A DNA stretch of 38,566 bases, taken from IMG/VR virus record IMGVR_UViG_3300032157_000032, positions 1 through 38,566 of that record; one strand, written 5' to 3'. The first letter of the stretch is position 1; every line of letters begins with the position of its first letter. Below are positions 17,444 to 33,459 of the stretch, piece by piece. This DNA is from a virus. The notes beneath the pieces were generated by a model that searched no databases, was not told where the DNA came from, and saw only the letters and a program-made list of their open reading frames with translations. Position numbers and translations under genes: made by a program.

Positions 17444-18601
17444 TTACTTCCCCTCCTGTGTGAGTTTCGCTTGGTGCCGCTGGGCCAGCTCCCGGGTGTC
17501 CTGTGCTGCAAGGTGTACGTAGCGGTCTACCGCGTTGGACTTCCACCCACCCAATGCCTTGAGCTGGTGAGCGTTGGCGCCCTGGGATGCCATCGCCGTG
17601 GCCGCGGTATGCCTCAGGGCATGGAACGGCCGGGGCATGTTGAGGCCGGCCCGCTGGAGCGCCTCATGGAGCCTGGGCAGGTAATCGTAACGGCCATACC
17701 GCTTGTGTTTGTGAGACCAGCGGCCGGGGAATACTGGGGTGGCCAGTTGCTCCGCGGTAGGTCCCCAGCAATCCCGGAACCGGCTGGCGTGGTACACCTT
17801 GAGGGCCAGGAGCGCCTCACCGTACACCCAGGCCACCCGGGCCTCCCCATTCTTGGTGTCCTCGAACATGAGCCGGCCTTCCGTCTCACCCAGGTCCACA
17901 TGGCTCCAGGTGAGCCCCAGCAGCTCCCCAGCACGCGCGGCGGTGCTCAGGGCCACCAGGGTGAGGGTGTGGAGCTGAGGGTCCTTGGCGGTCTCCTGGA
18001 GGAGCTTGGCGCGGGCCTGGTCGGCATAGGCTTTGCCCTTGGTCTTGCCCTCGGGGAGCTTGGACAGTCCGGTGAACGGGTTGGCGCCAGGCTGGAGCCA
18101 TTCCCAGTCTCCACACACATGGCCGAACACGGAGGACAGGGCGGCCATGTAGCGGTTCACGGTGGCCGGGGTGCGCTGGTACTGGGGGGCCTCGCCGGCC
18201 GCCTCGGAACGCTTGGAGCCCGGGGTGGCGCGGGCATACTTGCCCTGGAGCAACACCAGGCGCTGGTCCGACAGCCAGCCCCGGCTCACCTCGCCCACCT
18301 TGCGGGTGCCGTGGGTGTTCATCCACCAATCCAGGGTGAACCCGTACATGGCACCATTGCGCATCCTGGGGAGGACCTCGGCGCGCCAACGCTCGATGGC
18401 ATCGGCAATGGTCCGCTTGCGCCCCTCGGTGCCCTTGAAATGGCGGCCTTCCACCATGGCGGCCTCGATGGTCGCGGCCCATGCCTTGGCCAGGCGCTTG
18501 TTGGGGAACGTGGCGCCCTGGGGCGGGAAACCGGCCTTGCGGACCTGGACCTGGACGGAGACGGTGCCGTCCTTGGCGGTGCGGGTGCGGTATGTTGCCA
18601 T
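17444..18601 (-). CDS. int: Tyrosine integrase
   Basis: 385 aa from ATG 18601, which shares a base with the preceding stop (TAATG); the longer frame is antisense-like. An N-terminal DNA-binding domain (RTRTAKDGTVSVQVQVRKAG..., AP2-like), a core-binding domain (about 65-180), and a catalytic domain with Arg223 (AARAGELLGL), Lys250, His327-Ala-Leu-Arg330, Trp353 and the nucleophile Tyr361 (DRYVHL). All catalytic residues are present, so the enzyme should be active. It would recombine attP (19312-19358) with a host tRNA-Lys gene. Three small genes share its operon and a strong terminator follows. Confidence 0.93.
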   Translation of the reverse strand: MATYRTRTAKDGTVSVQVQVRKAGFPPQGATFPNKRLAKAWAATIEAAMVEGRHFKGTEGRKRTIADAIERWRAEVLPRMRNGAMYGFTLDWWMNTHGTRKVGEVSRGWLSDQRLVLLQGKYARATPGSKRSEAAGEAPQYQRTPATVNRYMAALSSVFGHVCGDWEWLQPGANPFTGLSKLPEGKTKGKAYADQARAKLLQETAKDPQLHTLTLVALSTAARAGELLGLTWSHVDLGETEGRLMFEDTKNGEARVAWVYGEALLALKVYHASRFRDCWGPTAEQLATPVFPGRWSHKHKRYGRYDYLPRLHEALQRAGLNMPRPFHALRHTAATAMASQGANAHQLKALGGWKSNAVDRYVHLAAQDTRELAQRHQAKLTQEGK

Positions 18602-18816
18602 TAGCGGGGGTCTCCGTAGCGAACGGTTACCGCCAGGTTGCGCGCCTGGAGGCGCTGGACACACTCCAGCACGCGGGCCACATGGTGAGGAAAGGTGGGT
18701 GTCCACCAGACTACCCAGAGGCTACCGCCGTGGGGGTGGGCCTCCCGGCGGAGGTGAGGACGGTCCGGGGATACACCCGGGGGTGGCATGGTGTAGCGAG
18801 GGCGGCGGGTGGTCAT
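18601..18816 (-). CDS. Unknown small protein upstream of integrase
   Basis: 71 aa with a GGGGAGG ribosome site, ending TAATG with integrase. N-terminus is Arg/Pro-rich (TTRRPRYTMPPPGVSPDRPH); the C-terminal half, WVVWWTPTFPHHVARVLECVQRL, could be a small folded domain. The position just before int is where excisionases may lie, but no winged-helix or AlpA-like motif is clear. Confidence 0.5.
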   Translation of the reverse strand: MTTRRPRYTMPPPGVSPDRPHLRREAHPHGGSLWVVWWTPTFPHHVARVLECVQRLQARNLAVTVRYGDPR

Positions 18817-19311: not shown

Positions 19312-19358
19312 TGGTGGGCCGTCCCCGGCTCGAACGGGGGACCTACTGATTAAGAGTC
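19312..19358 (-). other. attP: attP core: 3' half of tRNA-Lys(CUU)
   Basis: Read on the minus strand, these 47 bases run from the anticodon stem through loop CTCTTAA (anticodon CTT), stem TCAGT, variable region, T arm CCCCG-TTCGAGC-CGGGG, acceptor strand ACGGCCC, discriminator A and CCA. The upstream bases do not form the D arm or 5' acceptor strand, and the 5' side of the anticodon stem has a mismatch, so this is a fragment, not a gene. Integration here would rebuild the host tRNA-Lys gene. The integrase operon starts about 85 bases away. Confidence 0.88.
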
Positions 19359-19388
19359 CGTTCACAGCACCCCGGCACACAATCCGGC

Positions 19389-19474: not shown

Positions 19475-20185
19475 CTACGCAAAAAGCCGCTCCACGAGGG
19501 GCGCTTTACCGCCTCTCCGCATGGCCACCTGGTGGGGTGTGACCTCCGCCACGAGCCGCCACCCCGGCGGGGCCGCCTCCTCCGAAACGTACACCCGGAC
19601 CTCTCGCGCCCGCTGGCGCCCGGCCCACGCCCAGAATTCCGTGCTGTCGAAGGGCCAGCCCTCTCCGGGGGGCGTGGTGCCCCGGTATGGCGGGTCACAG
19701 TAGAGCACGGCTCCAGGAGGTACGGGGACGTCCTGGTAAGCCCCGTGGCGGAATTCCACATTCCGGAACCCCCTGGCCAGCGTCATGGCCTTGGCGAGCC
19801 CCCGCGCACCCGCACCCGCGTAATACCGGCCCTGGGCGGGGTTGTCCTTTGCGTACCCTCCAAACCATTTCCCCCCGAACGAGCACGCGTACCCCGCGAA
19901 GCATCGCAGGGCGGAGGGGGCAACGTGCCGGAGGGACTTGTACTCCTCCAGGCTCACGGCCTCCGGGGGCTGCCACCCGTCCCGCAGTGCCGCGAAAAGT
20001 AGTGGCAAGTCCTGGTGTAGGTCGCTGGCCAGGACTCTCCCGAAGTGTGGCGCAAGATGGGCCGTCATGGCACACCCGCCCATAAAGGGCTCCACAAGTA
20101 ATTCCCGGGAATGTTGCCCTAGGTCGTTCAAAATAGCGCGGGAGAGGGCTGGGGCTACCCGCCATTTACCCCCGAGGAGTTTCAT
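19475..20185 (-). CDS. DNA adenine methyltransferase, Dam/D12 class
   Basis: 236 aa from ATG 20185. The N-terminus MKLLGGKWRVAPAL is the usual D12-class opening (GGK), followed by the AdoMet motif EPFMGG (residues 32-37), LASDLH, and the catalytic DPPY at 164-167. It would transfer a methyl group to N6 of adenine; GATC is the common target but cannot be shown here. Phage methyltransferases of this kind often protect against host restriction. No matching endonuclease is adjacent, so it is an orphan enzyme. No good ribosome site is seen before the start. Length is slightly below the usual 260-280 aa. Confidence 0.88.
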   Translation of the reverse strand: MKLLGGKWRVAPALSRAILNDLGQHSRELLVEPFMGGCAMTAHLAPHFGRVLASDLHQDLPLLFAALRDGWQPPEAVSLEEYKSLRHVAPSALRCFAGYACSFGGKWFGGYAKDNPAQGRYYAGAGARGLAKAMTLARGFRNVEFRHGAYQDVPVPPGAVLYCDPPYRGTTPPGEGWPFDSTEFWAWAGRQRAREVRVYVSEEAAPPGWRLVAEVTPHQVAMRRGGKAPLVERLFA

Positions 20186-20198
20186 GGGGAGGGGGCGG

Positions 20199-20552
20199 TC
20201 ACAGGGGGTAGTAGGCGCCGCGCGGGGTGGAGCGGTCCACAGGCTCCTCCGGGGCCGGCAGGGCGCGACACTTCGCAATCTCCCGGTCAATGACTGCCAG
20301 CTCCTGGGCCGCCTTTGCCTGGGCCTCCGCCTTGAGGGCGTACAGGGCGCGCAAATGCCCGGCGGTGACCTCCTCCGGCGGGAGGGGCGGGACCGTGACC
20401 TCCAGGACCTCACTGACCCGGACGTAGCCCATACCCAGGGGGCAATTGTCCGGGTCCTGGTGGTGGGTGATGTCCCGGAGTTGCATGGAGTCATACTTGG
20501 GGTTGCGGTACAGGGCCACCTTGCGGATGGCGTCCAATGGCTTGACTTTCAT
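20199..20552 (-). CDS. Unknown helical protein
   Basis: 117 aa from ATG 20552 (ATGA overlap). Starts MKVKPLDAIRKVALYRNPKY, then a long helix with coiled-coil character (VTAGHLRALYALKAEAQAKA...). The end is Pro-rich. Function unknown. Confidence 0.55.
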   Translation of the reverse strand: MKVKPLDAIRKVALYRNPKYDSMQLRDITHHQDPDNCPLGMGYVRVSEVLEVTVPPLPPEEVTAGHLRALYALKAEAQAKAAQELAVIDREIAKCRALPAPEEPVDRSTPRGAYYPL

Positions 20553-24416: not shown

Positions 24417-24648
24417 TGGCCACCCTCGCGCGTAACCAGTCGGGCACCATGGTGACCACGATGCCGATAAGGACCAGGGGGCAGCAAGCCACGGCCCACA
24501 CTGCCAAGGCGCCCTTGGTGTACCCAACGCAGTACACGATGTACCCGGACACCGCTAGGATGCCGGTAAGCCCCACGCACAGGACAGCCACGCACAGGGT
24601 GCTGGCTACTACCAGCACGCGGACCACGTTGACGGTAATGGTCATCAT
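24409..24648 (-). CDS. Two-span membrane protein
   Basis: 79 aa from ATG 24648 (ATGA overlap with endolysin). Very hydrophobic: VVRVLVVASTLCVAVLCVGL, a second segment VSGYIVYCVGYTKGALAVWA and a third CCPLVLIGIVVTMVP are possible. Directly after endolysin, so a holin or antiholin is a fair guess. Confidence 0.55.
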   Translation of the reverse strand: MMTITVNVVRVLVVASTLCVAVLCVGLTGILAVSGYIVYCVGYTKGALAVWAVACCPLVLIGIVVTMVPDWLRARVANG

Positions 24649-25169
24649 TTGGTGGACCCTCCCAAGCTGGACCCGGGGTAGTACCGCCAGTCCGGGCAGC
24701 GTATGCCCATGATGGCGTGTACAGCCTCAGGGGACCGCACCGCCACCACCCGGCGAATGTCATACGGGGAAAAATTCACCCGGTTGTCCTGATTGCCCCC
24801 CAGGAGGTGGATAGTACGGGCGGCTGTGTCCACACCAGTAAGGAACCCCACATGATGGCCCCCTGTACGCTCCAGGACCACGATGGACCCATAAGGGGCA
24901 ATGGCGACGGGGCCGACGTGTATCCCCCACTTAATAAACGCCCTGCCCCGGTAGAATGCCTTGGGCGGGGCTAGGCCGGCTGACTGAAGGCACCACGACA
25001 CGAAGGTGGCACACCATGGCGTCTCATCGTCGGACCACCACGCCCCGAGACGGGCCAGCATGGTGGCAATGATGGGGGCGGTGACCTTACCGGGAATCTC
25101 CCGGGTCCCTATCAGGCGCCGCGCCTCGATCATCCAAGGGCAGCTCCGCCGCAGGTCGCTATCGCGCAT
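24645..25169 (-). CDS. Endolysin, TIGR02594-type cysteine peptidase (NlpC/CHAP-like)
   Basis: 174 aa, GGAGGG ribosome site. The pattern PWMIEARRLIGTREIPG near the start, then DDETPWCATFVSWCLQSAGL with catalytic Cys53 and RTGGHHVGFL with His105/106, is the TIGR02594 family found as phage and bacterial cell-wall hydrolases. It would cut peptidoglycan peptides. No signal peptide or anchor is seen, so it needs a holin for release. Surrounding small membrane proteins supply candidates. Confidence 0.8.
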   Translation of the reverse strand: MRDSDLRRSCPWMIEARRLIGTREIPGKVTAPIIATMLARLGAWWSDDETPWCATFVSWCLQSAGLAPPKAFYRGRAFIKWGIHVGPVAIAPYGSIVVLERTGGHHVGFLTGVDTAARTIHLLGGNQDNRVNFSPYDIRRVVAVRSPEAVHAIMGIRCPDWRYYPGSSLGGSTK

Positions 25170-25172
25170 TCC

Positions 25173-25439
25173 CTACCCTCCCTGAGTCGCCACCCACCAG
25201 CGTGCCGCCAGGGTGGCCACGGCGCCCACGATGGTGGCCGTTACTGCGATGGTCTTATACGCCCCTCGGAATGATCCGACAAGTACCTTGGTCTCCTCCT
25301 GGGACTTGGTGAGGGCGTCCACCTTGGCCTCTAGGCGCTTGTGGTCGGCGCGTAGCTGCTCCAAGTGGGCCGCGGCCTTGCCTTGGTCCTGTAGGAACCG
25401 TGCCCAGTTAAATCCGCCGCTCATGCGCACCACCGGCAC
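25173..25439 (-). CDS. Coiled-coil protein with C-terminal membrane span
   Basis: 88 aa from GTG 25439 with GAGG seven bases upstream; ATG 25424 is a second choice. A charged coiled coil (HLEQLRADHKRLEAKVDALT) is followed by a single span (TIAVTATIVGAVATLAARWW). This layout resembles XhlA-type lysis accessory proteins. It directly precedes endolysin. Confidence 0.6.
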   Translation of the reverse strand: MPVVRMSGGFNWARFLQDQGKAAAHLEQLRADHKRLEAKVDALTKSQEETKVLVGSFRGAYKTIAVTATIVGAVATLAARWWVATQGG

Positions 25440-25881: not shown

Positions 25882-26682
25882 TCAGTCCTCCCAGTGTTTC
25901 ATGGCGTGGGCGTGTATCCAGGGGGTATGCATGGCGCACAGGGCGCCGCGGGGCTTGGAGGCCCCCGCAAAGGACATGTACGTGACCGGATCACTCGGCC
26001 GCAGCTTGGTGTGGTGCCTGGACCATGACCACACCCCCTCATTGGTCCCCCACAACGGCACCTTACCCAAGACGGTGGACAGCCACGCCTGATCGCTGCC
26101 CACATACCTGGGCCATCCCGGTGGGGGGTGGCGCAGCTTGGCGGGAGTGGTGGCCGGGTCGAACTGGTCCCACACCTGCCGACAGGTCCCGGCCCGGAAG
26201 GCAAACAGGGACCCGTGGATGGGGGACACCCGTCCACCCATGGCCATGAAGTCCGGGGGGCTTACCCCGTCATAGAACGGGGCCAGGAGCACCGACAGGG
26301 AACCCATGACCACACTGTCAAGGTCCATTGACAGGATAAGGTCCCCGGGAGCAATCCCCAGGGACGCCTGGGTGGCGGGGTCGAAGATTCGCAGTCTGCG
26401 GTAGCAGTTGGGCTGGCCCTGCCGCTGTGGCAGCCACGGGTAGGCCGGAGCGTGCCCTACCCGCAGGCCGGGTAGCTCACCCCACAAGGGCAGTTCCAGG
26501 ACGCCCAGGGAGGTCACTGCCCGGCGATGCCAGTCGGTGGGGCGGTCGGTAAGGCATACGATCCGCGTCCGCTGGGGAAGGTCCCCGTGGGTCAATAGCT
26601 GGCGGGCAATGTAGGCCACGTCCCGCCGGTCATACACCGGGCGCCAGCCTTTCCACAGCCATAAAATGCAATGCAAGGTCAC
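25882..26682 (-). CDS. Glycosyltransferase, GT-A fold
   Basis: 266 aa from GTG 26682, with GGAGG five bases upstream and a GTGA overlap. The start MTLHCILWLWKGWRPVYD, then IVCLTDRP, LPLWGELPGLRVG, NCYRRLRIFDPAT and LILSMDLDSVVMGSL. The DxD motif at residues 120-122 would bind the metal and sugar nucleotide. Late HTPWIHAHAMKH may supply metal ligands. The acceptor is unknown: cell surface glycan (serotype change, exclusion of other phages), virion protein or modified DNA are options. Linked with ATP-grasp and phosphoesterase genes. Confidence 0.7.
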   Translation of the reverse strand: MTLHCILWLWKGWRPVYDRRDVAYIARQLLTHGDLPQRTRIVCLTDRPTDWHRRAVTSLGVLELPLWGELPGLRVGHAPAYPWLPQRQGQPNCYRRLRIFDPATQASLGIAPGDLILSMDLDSVVMGSLSVLLAPFYDGVSPPDFMAMGGRVSPIHGSLFAFRAGTCRQVWDQFDPATTPAKLRHPPPGWPRYVGSDQAWLSTVLGKVPLWGTNEGVWSWSRHHTKLRPSDPVTYMSFAGASKPRGALCAMHTPWIHAHAMKHWED

Positions 26683-27149
26683 GGGAGCCTCCAGCACTTT
26701 CCGGTGAGTATGTTGGAGACTTGAGACCTCGCCAGTCCTAGCATGGCGCCGATGGTGGTGCGATCTTCCCCGTAAGCATCCATGAGCCGCGCCCGTAGGG
26801 CATCCCGTATCGTGATCCGCGTCAGACCATTATGGCGTTTGTCAGGACGGCCCCGGCTACGGCCTTCCCTGTCTTGTGCGTTCTGCTGGAGCGTGCCTAG
26901 GTACAGATGCTCTGGGGCCACGCATGGGGGGTTGTCGCACTCGTGTAGGACATGAAACCCCGGTGGTACTGGGCCGTGGAACTTCATCCACGCAACTACA
27001 TGCGCGTACCAGTATCTACCCATCCAGCGCAGCACCCCGTAGCCAAAATGGGATGTGCTACGGGTCCACTCTCGACACCCATTAGGCCGCGGGGTGGAGT
27101 GGGCCCAGAAGTCCCGCCACAGCGCGTTTAGCCGATATCCCTTTGGCAC
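26679..27149 (-). CDS. HNH homing-type endonuclease with C-terminal helix-turn-helix
   Basis: 156 aa from GTG 27149, which shares a base with the previous stop (TAGTG). GCREWTRSTSHFGYGVLRW, then the HNH_3 core: HVVAWMKFHGPVPPGFHVLH, CDNPPCVAPEHLYLGT and a late Asn (QQNAQDREGRS). C-terminus TTIGAMLGLARSQVSNILTG is a helix-turn-helix used for site recognition. Such genes are mobile in phages. Sitting between ATP-grasp and glycosyltransferase genes without disturbing the coupling, it may be an insertion that became part of the operon. Confidence 0.8.
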   Translation of the reverse strand: MPKGYRLNALWRDFWAHSTPRPNGCREWTRSTSHFGYGVLRWMGRYWYAHVVAWMKFHGPVPPGFHVLHECDNPPCVAPEHLYLGTLQQNAQDREGRSRGRPDKRHNGLTRITIRDALRARLMDAYGEDRTTIGAMLGLARSQVSNILTGKCWRLP

Positions 27150-28114
27150 TAGCGTCCAGCCCCCAGGTCCTCCAGTAACACCTCCCACTGGTCCCGGCCC
27201 CTGTAGTGCCTCGGGTGGTGCTCCAGGGTGCACAGGTTGATTACCTCCGCGTCATAGTTGGCCCCTGCCAAGTTGCGGGACAGGTTCCACGCCAGCGTCA
27301 CGTCCACCACCAGCCACAGACCGGCGATGCGGTCATACAGCAAGTCCGCCGCGCACCACCGGGATTGGAGGCCGCGGTCGGCCATGTCCAGGAACGTGCG
27401 GACAGCCTTCCGGAGCCGCTCATCCTGTCGGAGCATTTCCAGCGGGATGGGCCGGCACGTACCGGACCCTGAGGCCCGCCAGTCGTGGGGCCGATTCTGG
27501 ACGTGGAACAGCCACCCGTAGTCATCAGTCACGCGGGCAATGCGAAGGGCGGACGTGTTGCCATGGACCATGGACTGCCACAGACACTCCGCGTATTGGA
27601 GCTTATCCCCGTACCGCTTGCCCTGCCCGAACACCTCGGTCAGCTCCGCGTCCACGTCCTTACGTGAGTGGAGGGCTCGGACGGTTTTGGAGCTGGAACC
27701 GAAACGGGCCTTGGACACGATGGGGAGGCCCAGCTCCGCGATGGCGGAGTCCACGGCCTCCTTGCACGGGCGCGTCCCCTGGAATACCCGCCCGCGGGGA
27801 TACCAGTCCTCCAGGCGCCGCATTTGATAGGCGCGATTCTCATAGCACCGGATGTCCTCCGCGGACTGGACGCAGCGGCCACCAGCCTCGATAAACCGCA
27901 GGGACCACGCCCTCCCCTCCTCGGGGTAGAGCTGGTTAACCCGCGCGAACAGTGTCCACCCCTCCCGGACCATGCCCTCCGGGGCGGGGCACCCGGGGCG
28001 GTCCGGGTCAACGTCCCGGGTCTCGACACCCCGGGCCCGTGCCGCGGCCATGAGGGAATCCCCCCACTTACCGGCCAGGACCAGGAGGCGCAGGGGCTTA
28101 CTTGCTGGGGACAT
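27149..28114 (-). CDS. ATP-grasp family ligase-like protein
   Basis: 321 aa. The N-terminus LRLLVLAGKWGDSLMAAARA is a pre-ATP-grasp domain. The ATP-binding part has LGLPIVSKARFGSSSKTVRA (residues about 128-147, Lys and Ser-rich loop) and LQYAECLWQ. The end has CAADLLYDRIAGLWLVVDVTLAWNL in the place of the usual E.N metal motif, somewhat changed. ATP-grasp enzymes join a carboxylate to an amine or thiol with ATP. Substrate is unknown. It overlaps the phosphoesterase gene by 17 bases, and a glycosyltransferase lies two genes on, so they may act in one pathway. Confidence 0.65.
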   Translation of the reverse strand: MSPASKPLRLLVLAGKWGDSLMAAARARGVETRDVDPDRPGCPAPEGMVREGWTLFARVNQLYPEEGRAWSLRFIEAGGRCVQSAEDIRCYENRAYQMRRLEDWYPRGRVFQGTRPCKEAVDSAIAELGLPIVSKARFGSSSKTVRALHSRKDVDAELTEVFGQGKRYGDKLQYAECLWQSMVHGNTSALRIARVTDDYGWLFHVQNRPHDWRASGSGTCRPIPLEMLRQDERLRKAVRTFLDMADRGLQSRWCAADLLYDRIAGLWLVVDVTLAWNLSRNLAGANYDAEVINLCTLEHHPRHYRGRDQWEVLLEDLGAGR

Positions 28115-28931
28115 AGCGGACGGCCTCCTTGGATGCGTTGGGGTACTTGCGGTAATACCTCTTTGCGAGGTACCCCATGGAAACCTCCATCAGGTCATAG
28201 GCCCCGCGGCATACCTCGTGCTTCATGATGATGCCGCGCCAGTGGTGGTTTCCCATGTGCCCCTTGTATTCCTCATTGTGTTGGTAATAGGAGCCTACAA
28301 TCAGGTTACGGTGTACGCTGCCGTCTTGGAGGTACCGCTCCGCGGACTTTTTGCCCTGCTCATGCCCGGCTGTGTGGGAGAAGCCTATCGCCGTCAGGCG
28401 CCGCTCCGCGGCTCCGCCCCAGGGCTTGCCCGTGTTTGGGTGGGGGACGTAGTGCTGGTAACTGATACCGTCGATTTTGACCGGCTTTAGGAATTCGTGG
28501 ACTTCCCACCCATGCCGCACGAGATTGAAGTCGTGATATCCCAGCTTGCCCCGCAGCTCGGGGTTGGCGTTGATGTGGCGCATGATCCGCTGTTCATGGT
28601 TGCCCAGGCAAAACACCAGCCGGGGGCGCCACACCTTGGAGGATCGCGGCCCGTAGTGGCGCCGCTGGCGCTCCTGGGCCGCCCGTATAGGGCGCATGAA
28701 AAGGTCCATGGCGAGGTTTCCCGCCTCGATGTCATCCCGGTATGCGCGGCCCTCCGCGGCCATGGTGCCCTTATCGTAGGAGGATAGGCTCGGCATGTCC
28801 CAGTGGTCCCCGACGTGGACGATAACGTCCGGCTGTTTCTCCGCGAAGTAATCCCCGGCCCACAGCATATGCTCCAGCGGGACCCCGGGCTTGGCTTGGG
28901 TATCGGGCACTATGCCGTGCTTGCGCGCCAT
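28098..28931 (-). CDS. Calcineurin-like metallophosphoesterase
   Basis: 277 aa; ATG directly follows the previous stop (TGAATG). Metal motifs: DTQ (Asp10, in place of DxH), VGDHWD (41-45), LGNHE (110-113), with later SHTAGHEQG as the His motif. Phage enzymes of this group are poorly known; some may act on nucleic acid ends or nucleotides. Overlap with the ATP-grasp gene and nearness to nuclease genes leave both a nucleic acid role and a modification role open. Confidence 0.75.
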   Translation of the reverse strand: MARKHGIVPDTQAKPGVPLEHMLWAGDYFAEKQPDVIVHVGDHWDMPSLSSYDKGTMAAEGRAYRDDIEAGNLAMDLFMRPIRAAQERQRRHYGPRSSKVWRPRLVFCLGNHEQRIMRHINANPELRGKLGYHDFNLVRHGWEVHEFLKPVKIDGISYQHYVPHPNTGKPWGGAAERRLTAIGFSHTAGHEQGKKSAERYLQDGSVHRNLIVGSYYQHNEEYKGHMGNHHWRGIIMKHEVCRGAYDLMEVSMGYLAKRYYRKYPNASKEAVRYVPSK

Positions 28932-29420
28932 TCAAGGCACCCGGTCACAGGCGCAAGCCTCGGGCCGTCCTGCCCCGCAGGTACAGCGCCACGTCCCACA
29001 TTCCCCCGTCCAGTACATGGCAGGCTCCCGCCAGTCGGCGCCCGCGGGGACGTGTAGGGCCGGTCCCAATGTCGGGACCCGGGCCGCGGTGGTCTCCAGG
29101 TGGGCCGTGATGGCCCCCAAGAGGTTGAACAGCCCATGCACGGCATGGAGGTGGGGCTCCTTACCGGGCAGGGCGTCCGCGGTGTTGGGGCTCCACGGAT
29201 CGTGCCCTACCACATGGCGCAGGAGGCCGTTACCCAGCCGCTTGCGCACCTCGGGGAGCTGGCGCCATTCGTTGAACGGGTCGGCGGCCCCCGCCAAGCG
29301 GTGCTTGTGTTGCATGTCATCCATCATGCGGGCCAGGGCCAGTAGGGCCGGGGCGAAGGGACGCAGGGCGTCCAGGAGTGGGGCCTTGCCTACGTCCGTC
29401 TTGTAATCATTCGGCGGCAT
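28932..29420 (-). CDS. dATP/dGTP diphosphohydrolase-like protein (DUF5664 type)
   Basis: 162 aa from ATG 29420 with GAGGGA upstream. The start NDYKTDVGKAPLLDALRPFA, the helix ALLALARMM, and later GLLRHVVGHDPWSP..HLHAVHGLFNLLGAI match the all-alpha phage domain once called DUF5664 (dGTP_diPhyd_N). Such enzymes may change the dNTP pool. The C-terminal 50 residues add a Cys-rich end (CGTWRCTCGAG). Family call from pattern, substrate not shown. Confidence 0.55.
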   Translation of the reverse strand: MPPNDYKTDVGKAPLLDALRPFAPALLALARMMDDMQHKHRLAGAADPFNEWRQLPEVRKRLGNGLLRHVVGHDPWSPNTADALPGKEPHLHAVHGLFNLLGAITAHLETTAARVPTLGPALHVPAGADWREPAMYWTGECGTWRCTCGAGRPEACACDRVP

Positions 29421-30735: not shown

Positions 30736-31344
30736 CTACTCCTGTCCCAGGTCGGGGGCGCCGTCTCCGTCGTTGCGTGGCACGTCGCCCGGCTCGCCCG
30801 GGAGGATGCGCTCACGGATTTGCTTTTGCAGCCACGGCGCCAACTGCTGAAACACCGCGTTTTCACCGTCCTCGGGGGAGTAGGCCAGGAGGGGACGCTC
30901 CGCCTTGGGGGAGGGCATCCCCTTGGGCAGCGGGGCCAAGGTCTGGATGTTGGCATAGGTCTGGTCGCCCTTCTGGGTCTCCACCACGTTGCCCAGGAAT
31001 GCCTTGCCCAGGATGGATGCCACATCGAAGTTACCGGCCTCGCCGGCCTTGAAGCGTTTGCCCATGCCACTCTCGATCAGCTTGCGGAGGGCGGCCTTTT
31101 CGTTCATGGAGGCGGTGAGTGTGGTCCCGATAACCAGCGGGCCCTCCAGCTCCTCATCCCCGCGCTTGTACGTCACCCGCTCTCCGGGCACCTCGAAACG
31201 GATGTACACCTTTCGCTTGGGCGCCGGGTACTGCGCACTGCCCTTCTGCATCCCCATATCCACCACCTGATTACACACCATGAGGTGGTTACCGGCGGAG
31301 ACGTTGGTTCGCTGGCGCTTCTCGCCACCTTCTGAAAACTTCAT
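30736..31344 (-). other. Possible internal translation start: free SSB-like protein
   Basis: ATG 31344 begins MKFSEGGEKRQRTNVSAGNH in frame with the polymerase and has AAAGGAACC nine bases before it. The linker codes for low-complexity His/Thr/Gly residues and reads like an old intergenic gap. Tandem stops TGA TAG occur in another frame just upstream of it. Both a 907-aa fusion and a free 202-aa SSB may be made. Confidence 0.55.
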
Positions 31345-33459
31345 GTGACTGGTTCCTTTGTGGGTGTAGTGGTGGGCCCTATCAGAGCCCTCGCCGAAGT
31401 GGGTGCCGTGGCTGGATTCTGCGGCCAGCTCCACGTTGTAGTCAATGCCGTACACAGCGTGTAGGAATGCCCAGGTAAGCGGGCCGTAAGAGTTTCCGCA
31501 GGTCTCGTGCCATGCCTCTATGTCATCCCGGTGCAGCTCACCCTCCGCGGAGTCATGCACCAACATTACCGGGTACCAGCGGATGCCCAAGCGCCGGCAT
31601 TCATACACGAGACACAGGAAGGACACTGTGGCCATCTCGCCAGTGGCGAAGTATTGAATGGGCAGGTTGCGGACGATGGAGTATAGGGACCGCTTGGTGT
31701 CCGCGTTGACCATGCGCAGGTCCCCGTTATAGCCCTCCTCCCACCCCACCGGCCACTGAAACACCATACCCGTGGGAGAGACGTACTTGCCCGTCCACGC
31801 CACCTCATCATCCCAAGCCGCCTGGGCCGCCGTGATGCCGTGGTAGTGCTCGCCGAACCATTTGTAATAGGCCCGTTCCCGGTCGGTACCGGAGGACCCG
31901 CCGAACAGAGGCTTAAATGTGTGGGCCTTGGCTGCGGAGCGCAGGGCCTTCACGGCCTTGGGATCGGCCTTGTACTGCGCGAACAGGGCACGGTAGGCGG
32001 CATCATCCCGGGCACCGTCCCGGAGAACCTGTCCAGACTGTATGTGTGCGTCGAACTCCGGGTTAGCAATGTCGGCCAAACACTGGGGGCACTGGGACAG
32101 GAACCCGGCCCCGCGGAATTCCGCCTGTGACTGGTCCACCTCGCCGGTGACGTGATCGGCCCGCTTGCACGTAAACACGCCCTTGAGGTGTTGTGGGACA
32201 TTCTGTAGCTGACAGGAGTAGTCCACCCCGGGGATAGGCTTACCTCGGCACGTCAGGCGGTGGGTGGCCGCAACCCCCTGCATTAGCTCCGCGTACACCA
32301 CTCCGCCGGCCTTCTCGCATACCGCGGCGAAGTAGCGGAGGTTTTTGTCCCGCTCCGCGTACAGGTCCATAAGGGCCAAGTGATGCTTGGCCCATAGCTT
32401 CTGGCGTGGGGTGCGGGCGGACTTGGCCAGGGCCGTCATGGCATCCACGGATAGCTGGGGGCGCCCTCCGGGCCAGGACTTGCTACCCAAGGCCGCGGTA
32501 CGCATTTTGTTGCCCTTGCGGTCCACCGGCTCCCGGAATCCCAGTGGCTCCACCAAGGGAGCACCGCGCACGGCGGGCACCTTGCATTTGCCACAACGAC
32601 GGACGCCCTTGTGCCGGCGTAGCGGCTCACGACACTGGCAAGCCGGGTCCCACTGGTACTTGTCATCCTCGGGGGTGTCCGCAGGCCATAGGCCATATAG
32701 GAGGGGCGCCATTTCGTTGACGGATCGCGGGTTAGCTCCCCGGGTAACGTCCCTAAGGGCGGCCTCATGCTCGGCAATCTGCCGGGCGTTACGCTCCACG
32801 TGGGCGGCCACGCGGGCCGGGTCCAGTTGCTTGCCCTCCAGCTCAATCCGTGCCAGCTCCAGCATTTGCATCGAGCGGACGATGGTGAGCCGGACTTGGG
32901 CCTCCGTCATGCGCGCGAGCTGGGCCTCGTACACCGTGCGACAGTCCGCCACGTCCTTACGGTTGCGCTCCATCAGGCGGTCCAGGGGCACCTCCATGAC
33001 CCGCCCCGCCTTTATCATTTCGTCCACCCACGGGTCCTTAGGCGCGCACCCGTACCGCTGGGCCGTGTCGTCCAGGTTGAGCCCCAAGCCCCGGGTGTTG
33101 TTGGCCACCAGCACCCACTCCGCCAGCATGGTGTCCCACCATACGAACTGTCCCGGGTCTATGCCGCGGGTAATGAGGGCCTGGGCCTCATACTTGGCGT
33201 TGTGGGCGATGAGGAGGACGCCGGGACGGGCCACGGCATGGAATCCGCGACACTCGGACAGTGGTTCGTCTGACACGGTGACTATAGGAGGCCACTCGGA
33301 TACCGTCCGCTCCCGGTGTTCCTCGAACCCCACGCACCGGGTGGGGCTGGCCGGGTCTAGGCGCTCCGTCTCGATATCCCACGCCATGCCGGCGCCGGGC
33401 TTGATTGCATCGCGCCACCGCCAGAAGGTGGCCAGGGCGGATAACCCCTGCACCCTCAC
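30736..33459 (-). CDS. Family A DNA polymerase fused to an SSB-like domain
   Basis: 907 aa from GTG 33459 (GTGA overlap). N-terminal DnaQ-like 3'-5' exonuclease: WDIE (Asp28, Glu30), HNAKYE, and NRKDVADC. A four-Cys zinc ribbon (Cys274, 276, 289, 292) is inserted before the polymerase domain. Polymerase motifs: A DQSQAEFR (Asp442), B RSAAKAHTFKPLFGG (Arg507-Lys511), C VHDS (His635-Asp636). The polymerase ends in normal fashion near residue 690. Residues 706-907 are an SSB-like replication domain (KRKVYIRFEV, LTASMNEKAALRKLIES, NFDVASILGKAFLG, YANIQTLAPLPKG) with an acidic end. This second part is normally a separate gene. Confidence 0.9.
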   Translation of the reverse strand: MRVQGLSALATFWRWRDAIKPGAGMAWDIETERLDPASPTRCVGFEEHRERTVSEWPPIVTVSDEPLSECRGFHAVARPGVLLIAHNAKYEAQALITRGIDPGQFVWWDTMLAEWVLVANNTRGLGLNLDDTAQRYGCAPKDPWVDEMIKAGRVMEVPLDRLMERNRKDVADCRTVYEAQLARMTEAQVRLTIVRSMQMLELARIELEGKQLDPARVAAHVERNARQIAEHEAALRDVTRGANPRSVNEMAPLLYGLWPADTPEDDKYQWDPACQCREPLRRHKGVRRCGKCKVPAVRGAPLVEPLGFREPVDRKGNKMRTAALGSKSWPGGRPQLSVDAMTALAKSARTPRQKLWAKHHLALMDLYAERDKNLRYFAAVCEKAGGVVYAELMQGVAATHRLTCRGKPIPGVDYSCQLQNVPQHLKGVFTCKRADHVTGEVDQSQAEFRGAGFLSQCPQCLADIANPEFDAHIQSGQVLRDGARDDAAYRALFAQYKADPKAVKALRSAAKAHTFKPLFGGSSGTDRERAYYKWFGEHYHGITAAQAAWDDEVAWTGKYVSPTGMVFQWPVGWEEGYNGDLRMVNADTKRSLYSIVRNLPIQYFATGEMATVSFLCLVYECRRLGIRWYPVMLVHDSAEGELHRDDIEAWHETCGNSYGPLTWAFLHAVYGIDYNVELAAESSHGTHFGEGSDRAHHYTHKGTSHMKFSEGGEKRQRTNVSAGNHLMVCNQVVDMGMQKGSAQYPAPKRKVYIRFEVPGERVTYKRGDEELEGPLVIGTTLTASMNEKAALRKLIESGMGKRFKAGEAGNFDVASILGKAFLGNVVETQKGDQTYANIQTLAPLPKGMPSPKAERPLLAYSPEDGENAVFQQLAPWLQKQIRERILPGEPGDVPRNDGDGAPDLGQE

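Follow-up and report, generated by a model that had tools for sequence, protein, structure and literature searches.

The window, a 38,566-nt viral IMG/VR record analysed at its full length, represents a temperate siphovirus-like phage in which every annotated protein gene lies on the minus strand, among them HK97-type head genes, tail genes, an integrase, and the phage's own polymerase, helicase, primase and exonuclease. The integrase (17444-18706, minus strand) is the basis for the temperate reading; a complete tRNA-Lys(CTT) at 19312-19385 on the same strand, about 600 bases away, is a candidate attachment site, and an orphan DNA methyltransferase matching phrog_56 is encoded at 19475-20494 (minus strand). 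A DNA polymerase I-like reading frame of 907 amino acids (30736-33459, minus strand) matches phrog_862 through its C-terminal residues 709-853; its tblastn matches in phage RIO-1 cover both the polymerase and putative single-stranded DNA-binding genes, suggesting that the frame may encode a polymerase-SSB fusion. Searches by polymerase or terminase returned no close relative of this phage.

Four genes at 25882-28931, all on the minus strand, had been described by a sequence-only reading as a possible new modification pathway, and their individual identities hold up well. They encode a calcineurin-like metallophosphoesterase (MPE; 28098-28931; phrog_221, E 1e-47), a 321-residue ATP-grasp ligase (AG; 27149-28114), an HNH endonuclease of about 156 residues between AG and GT (26679-27149; PF13392, E 4e-14; phrog_1872, E 2e-28), and a glycosyltransferase of about 266 residues (GT; 25882-26682). 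AG has no Pfam or PHROG match of its own, and its assignment is borne out by its relatives and its predicted fold. GT likewise has no confident family match, with a weak hit to phrog_1962 (E 0.008); it carries the DxD motif within 'MDLDSVV', and in an alignment with three relatives D118-L119-D120 and GSDQAW are invariant, pointing to a GT-A type enzyme. The small protein that precedes the group (28932-29420, minus strand) had been taken for a dNTP diphosphohydrolase-like enzyme, an identity that we could not confirm: it has no match in Pfam, PHROG, NCBIfam or tblastn searches. PADLOC assigned none of MPE, AG or GT to a defence system. A CHAP endolysin gene (24645-25439, minus strand) lies just downstream of GT, and the gene before it encodes a small protein that has a single hydrophobic stretch; the two are probably a lysis pair.

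Do these four genes act together? Their tight coupling is real: MPE and AG overlap by 17 nt, AG and HNH by 1 nt, and the GTG start of GT overlaps the HNH stop in the sequence GTGA. However, most adjacent gene pairs that we checked in this genome either overlap or are separated by at most 20 nt, and because such spacing is usual across the window, overlap by itself is no evidence of a common function. What does inform on it is conservation of the arrangement in other genomes, and here the coupling described as conserved proved to be so for AG and GT, and not for MPE or HNH. The four genes are not one unit; the core is AG plus GT, with MPE and HNH as chance neighbours.

MPE is an ordinary full member of the phrog_221 phage metallophosphoesterases, about 45-50% identical to those of many phages, with no feature that sets it apart; its metal-binding residues (D10, D42, N111, H112, H160 and H190) are invariant in the alignment. 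Its relatives occur in 494 named phages and 32 viral loci, often preceded by a 5'-3' exonuclease gene. Neither AG nor GT was found in any of the 32 control loci chosen by MPE, and none of the 28 AG records searched contained MPE, so the expected co-occurrence of three enzymes fails for this one; MPE therefore belongs with the replication genes and is ruled out as a partner of AG and GT. The HNH gene is ruled out as well, as it is not common to the AG-GT cassettes (one weak match among the AG loci), and it is probably an inserted, selfish, mobile-type endonuclease outside any pathway.

For AG, single-sequence searches of viral contigs, genomes and named phages returned nothing, there was no sequence match among 50,697 named phages, and relatives surfaced only through a sensitive search of the open reading frames in GT loci. 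Full-length relatives are now known from about 59 IMG/VR contigs. Limited pattern scans of genome contigs, the second of them with a single pattern, found none, which does not imply absence from prophages. AlphaFold2 run without an alignment gave a pLDDT of 33, and with the relatives' alignment a pLDDT of 84.4 and a pTM of 0.85. Foldseek placed the latter model with 3vpb (E 6e-15), and over the whole chain it aligns to ArgX, LysX and RimK (3vpb, 3vpd and 7qys) with VIA Z scores of 21.8-23.2 across 265-270 residues, the best being 23.2 over 270 residues; known viral ATP-grasps are at most 16% identical to it. AG is thus predicted, on a model, to have the fold of the ArgX/LysX/RimK amino-acid ligases, enzymes that make amide bonds linking amino acids to proteins.

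The catalytic residues tell a more divided story. Two ATP-binding lysines (94 and 135) and a magnesium-binding glutamate (271) are kept in 57 of 57 aligned relatives, and the window AG alone departs from them, with K94R and E271D set against K and E in 27/27 and 30/30 relatives. It retains K135, R191, D257 and nearly all other invariant residues. The ExN magnesium motif is replaced in the family mostly by E-T-[T/S], and by D-V-T in the window. The window protein also forms the longest branch of the AG tree; in the locus of its nearest relative (L141) the order is AG-GT2-methyltransferase-GT, directly before apparent terminase and portal genes.

In most of the contigs that carry it, AG is paired with GT. 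GT relatives are encoded by 198 candidate viral stretches, and a GT alignment search yielded 80 loci, 12 of which carry a full-length AG on the same strand near GT. A first scan with patterns for AG alone recovered 29 contigs (11 already known), in 26 of which a same-strand GT lies no more than about 3 kb away, and a second scan, aimed at a different AG subgroup, added 30 new contigs, with GT in 27. Combined, a same-strand GT of the same family lies within 4 kb in 53 of the 59 AG contigs; among the 6 without one, three are contig ends (L120, L132 and L164), including two of the three misses in the first scan. Gene order varies, with GT before AG in three loci (L126, L135 and L137), and adjacency is kept. 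Distances among the AG proteins track those among the GTs (Mantel r 0.48, p 0.0002), a correlation that may reflect direct co-evolution or shared descent of the phages. AG rarely occurs without GT, whereas the majority of GT loci have no AG; from this asymmetry we argue that AG depends on GT, and on this genomic evidence the two are functionally coupled.

Where does the pair reside? In its relatives the genes upstream of AG match terminase, portal, minor head, head morphogenesis and head decoration families, those downstream match head maturation protease, major head, major tail, tail terminator and tape measure, and by a conservative count the pair lies among head and tail genes in at least 21 of 26 distinct loci. 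The window is different, with the pair between replication and lysis genes, away from the virion genes. Family-2 glycosyltransferases, class I methyltransferases (Methyltransf_24) and NAD-dependent sugar epimerases lie between AG and GT in some relatives. A LysW-type carrier with a C-terminal Glu was sought up to 6 kb from AG in the distinct loci and the window, and none was found. Two further small proteins recur. One, of about 100 residues, has a single hydrophobic stretch and the motif 'PRETVxG' and comes right after AG in several relatives (L137:7840-8139, L140:7822-8127 and L142:7783-8094). The other is a family of about 190 residues present in 8 AG loci, often directly before AG (L139:6399-6992, L144:6438-6965 and L128:8283-8849), which looks like a part of the cassette; two members had no Pfam match, and five upstream neighbours of AG that match phrog_755 (named RNA ligase) possibly belong to it.

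From the conserved gene pair, the predicted ATP-grasp fold and the virion-operon location in relatives, we infer a chemistry, an acceptor and a purpose, and we give about an even chance to the reading that AG and GT form the centre of a cassette with which phages build an amino-acid-bearing glycan as a decoration. GT, as a putative GT-A enzyme with a DxD motif, would move a sugar from a nucleotide sugar. AG, as a carboxylate-amine ligase similar to ArgX, LysX and RimK, would use ATP to activate a carboxylate as an acyl phosphate and form an amide, placing an amino acid on the sugar or on the sugar-carrying protein, and in many phages the additional glycosyltransferases, SAM methyltransferases and sugar epimerases would modify the product further. 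The position of the cassette inside head and tail operons makes a virion protein (head, decoration or tail) the most likely acceptor, and the purpose may be particle shielding or adhesion. That this amounts to an undescribed family of phage amino-acid ligases which, with a dedicated glycosyltransferase, make amino-acid- or peptide-bearing virion glycans, a coat decoration unknown in bacteriophages, is a more tentative proposal, to which we give rather less than even weight.

The main rival places the target in the host envelope: in an infected or lysogenic cell the cassette would alter LPS, capsule or a similar structure, and so exclude superinfecting phages or convert the serotype. In its favour, the window phage is temperate and its pair lies outside the virion genes, the GT family is also found beside other sugar enzymes and sialyltransferase-like genes, and both O-antigen and teichuronopeptide synthesis involve ATP-grasp ligases (PMC4431377). 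Against this, none of the cassette genes that we examined was recognisable as a flippase or as GtrA/B-type, and the relatives' cassettes sit inside virion operons. Such operons are as a rule expressed late. Envelope modification is a possibility that we hold at roughly one chance in four.

A second alternative concerns only the window copy and is compatible with the glycan-cassette reading for the family: the pair here may be decaying, functionless cargo. The K94R and E271D substitutions, the long branch, the HNH insertion and the unusual location all point that way, but both reading frames are intact, nearly all other invariant AG residues are kept, and the DxD of GT is undamaged, and we consider outright decay unlikely. 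Since HNH separates the two genes here, the replication genes lie ahead of them and AG has two invariant residues changed, the activity of the window AG itself is uncertain and may be altered or weak.

Less probable still is that AG alone modifies a host or phage protein by RimK-like or R2K-like peptide tagging, with GT a frequent neighbour in an accessory-gene hot spot. Its best fold matches are indeed protein-modifying ligases, and phage R2K ATP-grasps are predicted to modify host proteins (PMC4431377, PMC7824862). A hot spot, however, poorly explains the adjacency of AG to one GT family, order swaps that preserve that adjacency, correlated distances, and the rarity of AG without GT when GT itself mostly occurs without AG. 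The original idea of DNA hypermodification by MPE, AG and GT draws on the position of the window AG and GT beside the replication genes (polymerase, helicase, primase and exonuclease), but is very improbable given that MPE was not found with AG or GT elsewhere, that the relatives' pairs adjoin virion and not replication genes, and that no thymidylate-synthase-type enzyme (PF00303) was detected in 29 records, some of them fragments, by a search in which 9 of 14 controls gave a match; a search for TET/JBP hydroxylases, in which no control responded, was uninformative.

Although half of the cluster first proposed is thus a chance neighbourhood, the remaining ligase-glycosyltransferase pair, conserved in virion operons across about 59 uncultivated phage contigs, gives particle decoration a concrete marker that can be tested; such decoration could bear on adsorption, on the stability of the particle and on its recognition by immune systems. 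Virion glycosylation is known from only a few phage isolates, and the literature searched describes no ligase with it.

How does the pair relate to known systems? AG shares its whole-length predicted fold with the ArgX, LysX and RimK ligases, together with the second ATP lysine K135, R191 and D257, but it is 13-18% identical to them, has ET[T/S] in place of ExN, and in the window carries R94 and D271; its family is also without a nearby LysW carrier, its partner instead being a glycosyltransferase in a phage virion operon. The R2K clade of phage ATP-grasps (Burroughs 2015, PMC4431377) is similar in comprising phage peptide-type ligases with a predicted modification role, whereas R2K lost the linker lysine that all 57 AG relatives keep, and the available portion of that paper does not report R2K with glycosyltransferases in virion operons; R2K_2 matched 1 of 12 AG family members, weakly (E 0.03). 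Within the open-licence literature searched, as far as its accessible text goes, no virion operon that pairs an ATP-grasp with a glycosyltransferase is described. For glycosylated virions themselves, the cluster F1 mycobacteriophages Che8 and Rita carry glycans on capsid and tail-tube proteins and encode glycosyltransferases, and the available text of the two reports mentions no ATP-grasp ligase (PMC11256854, PMC12619734).
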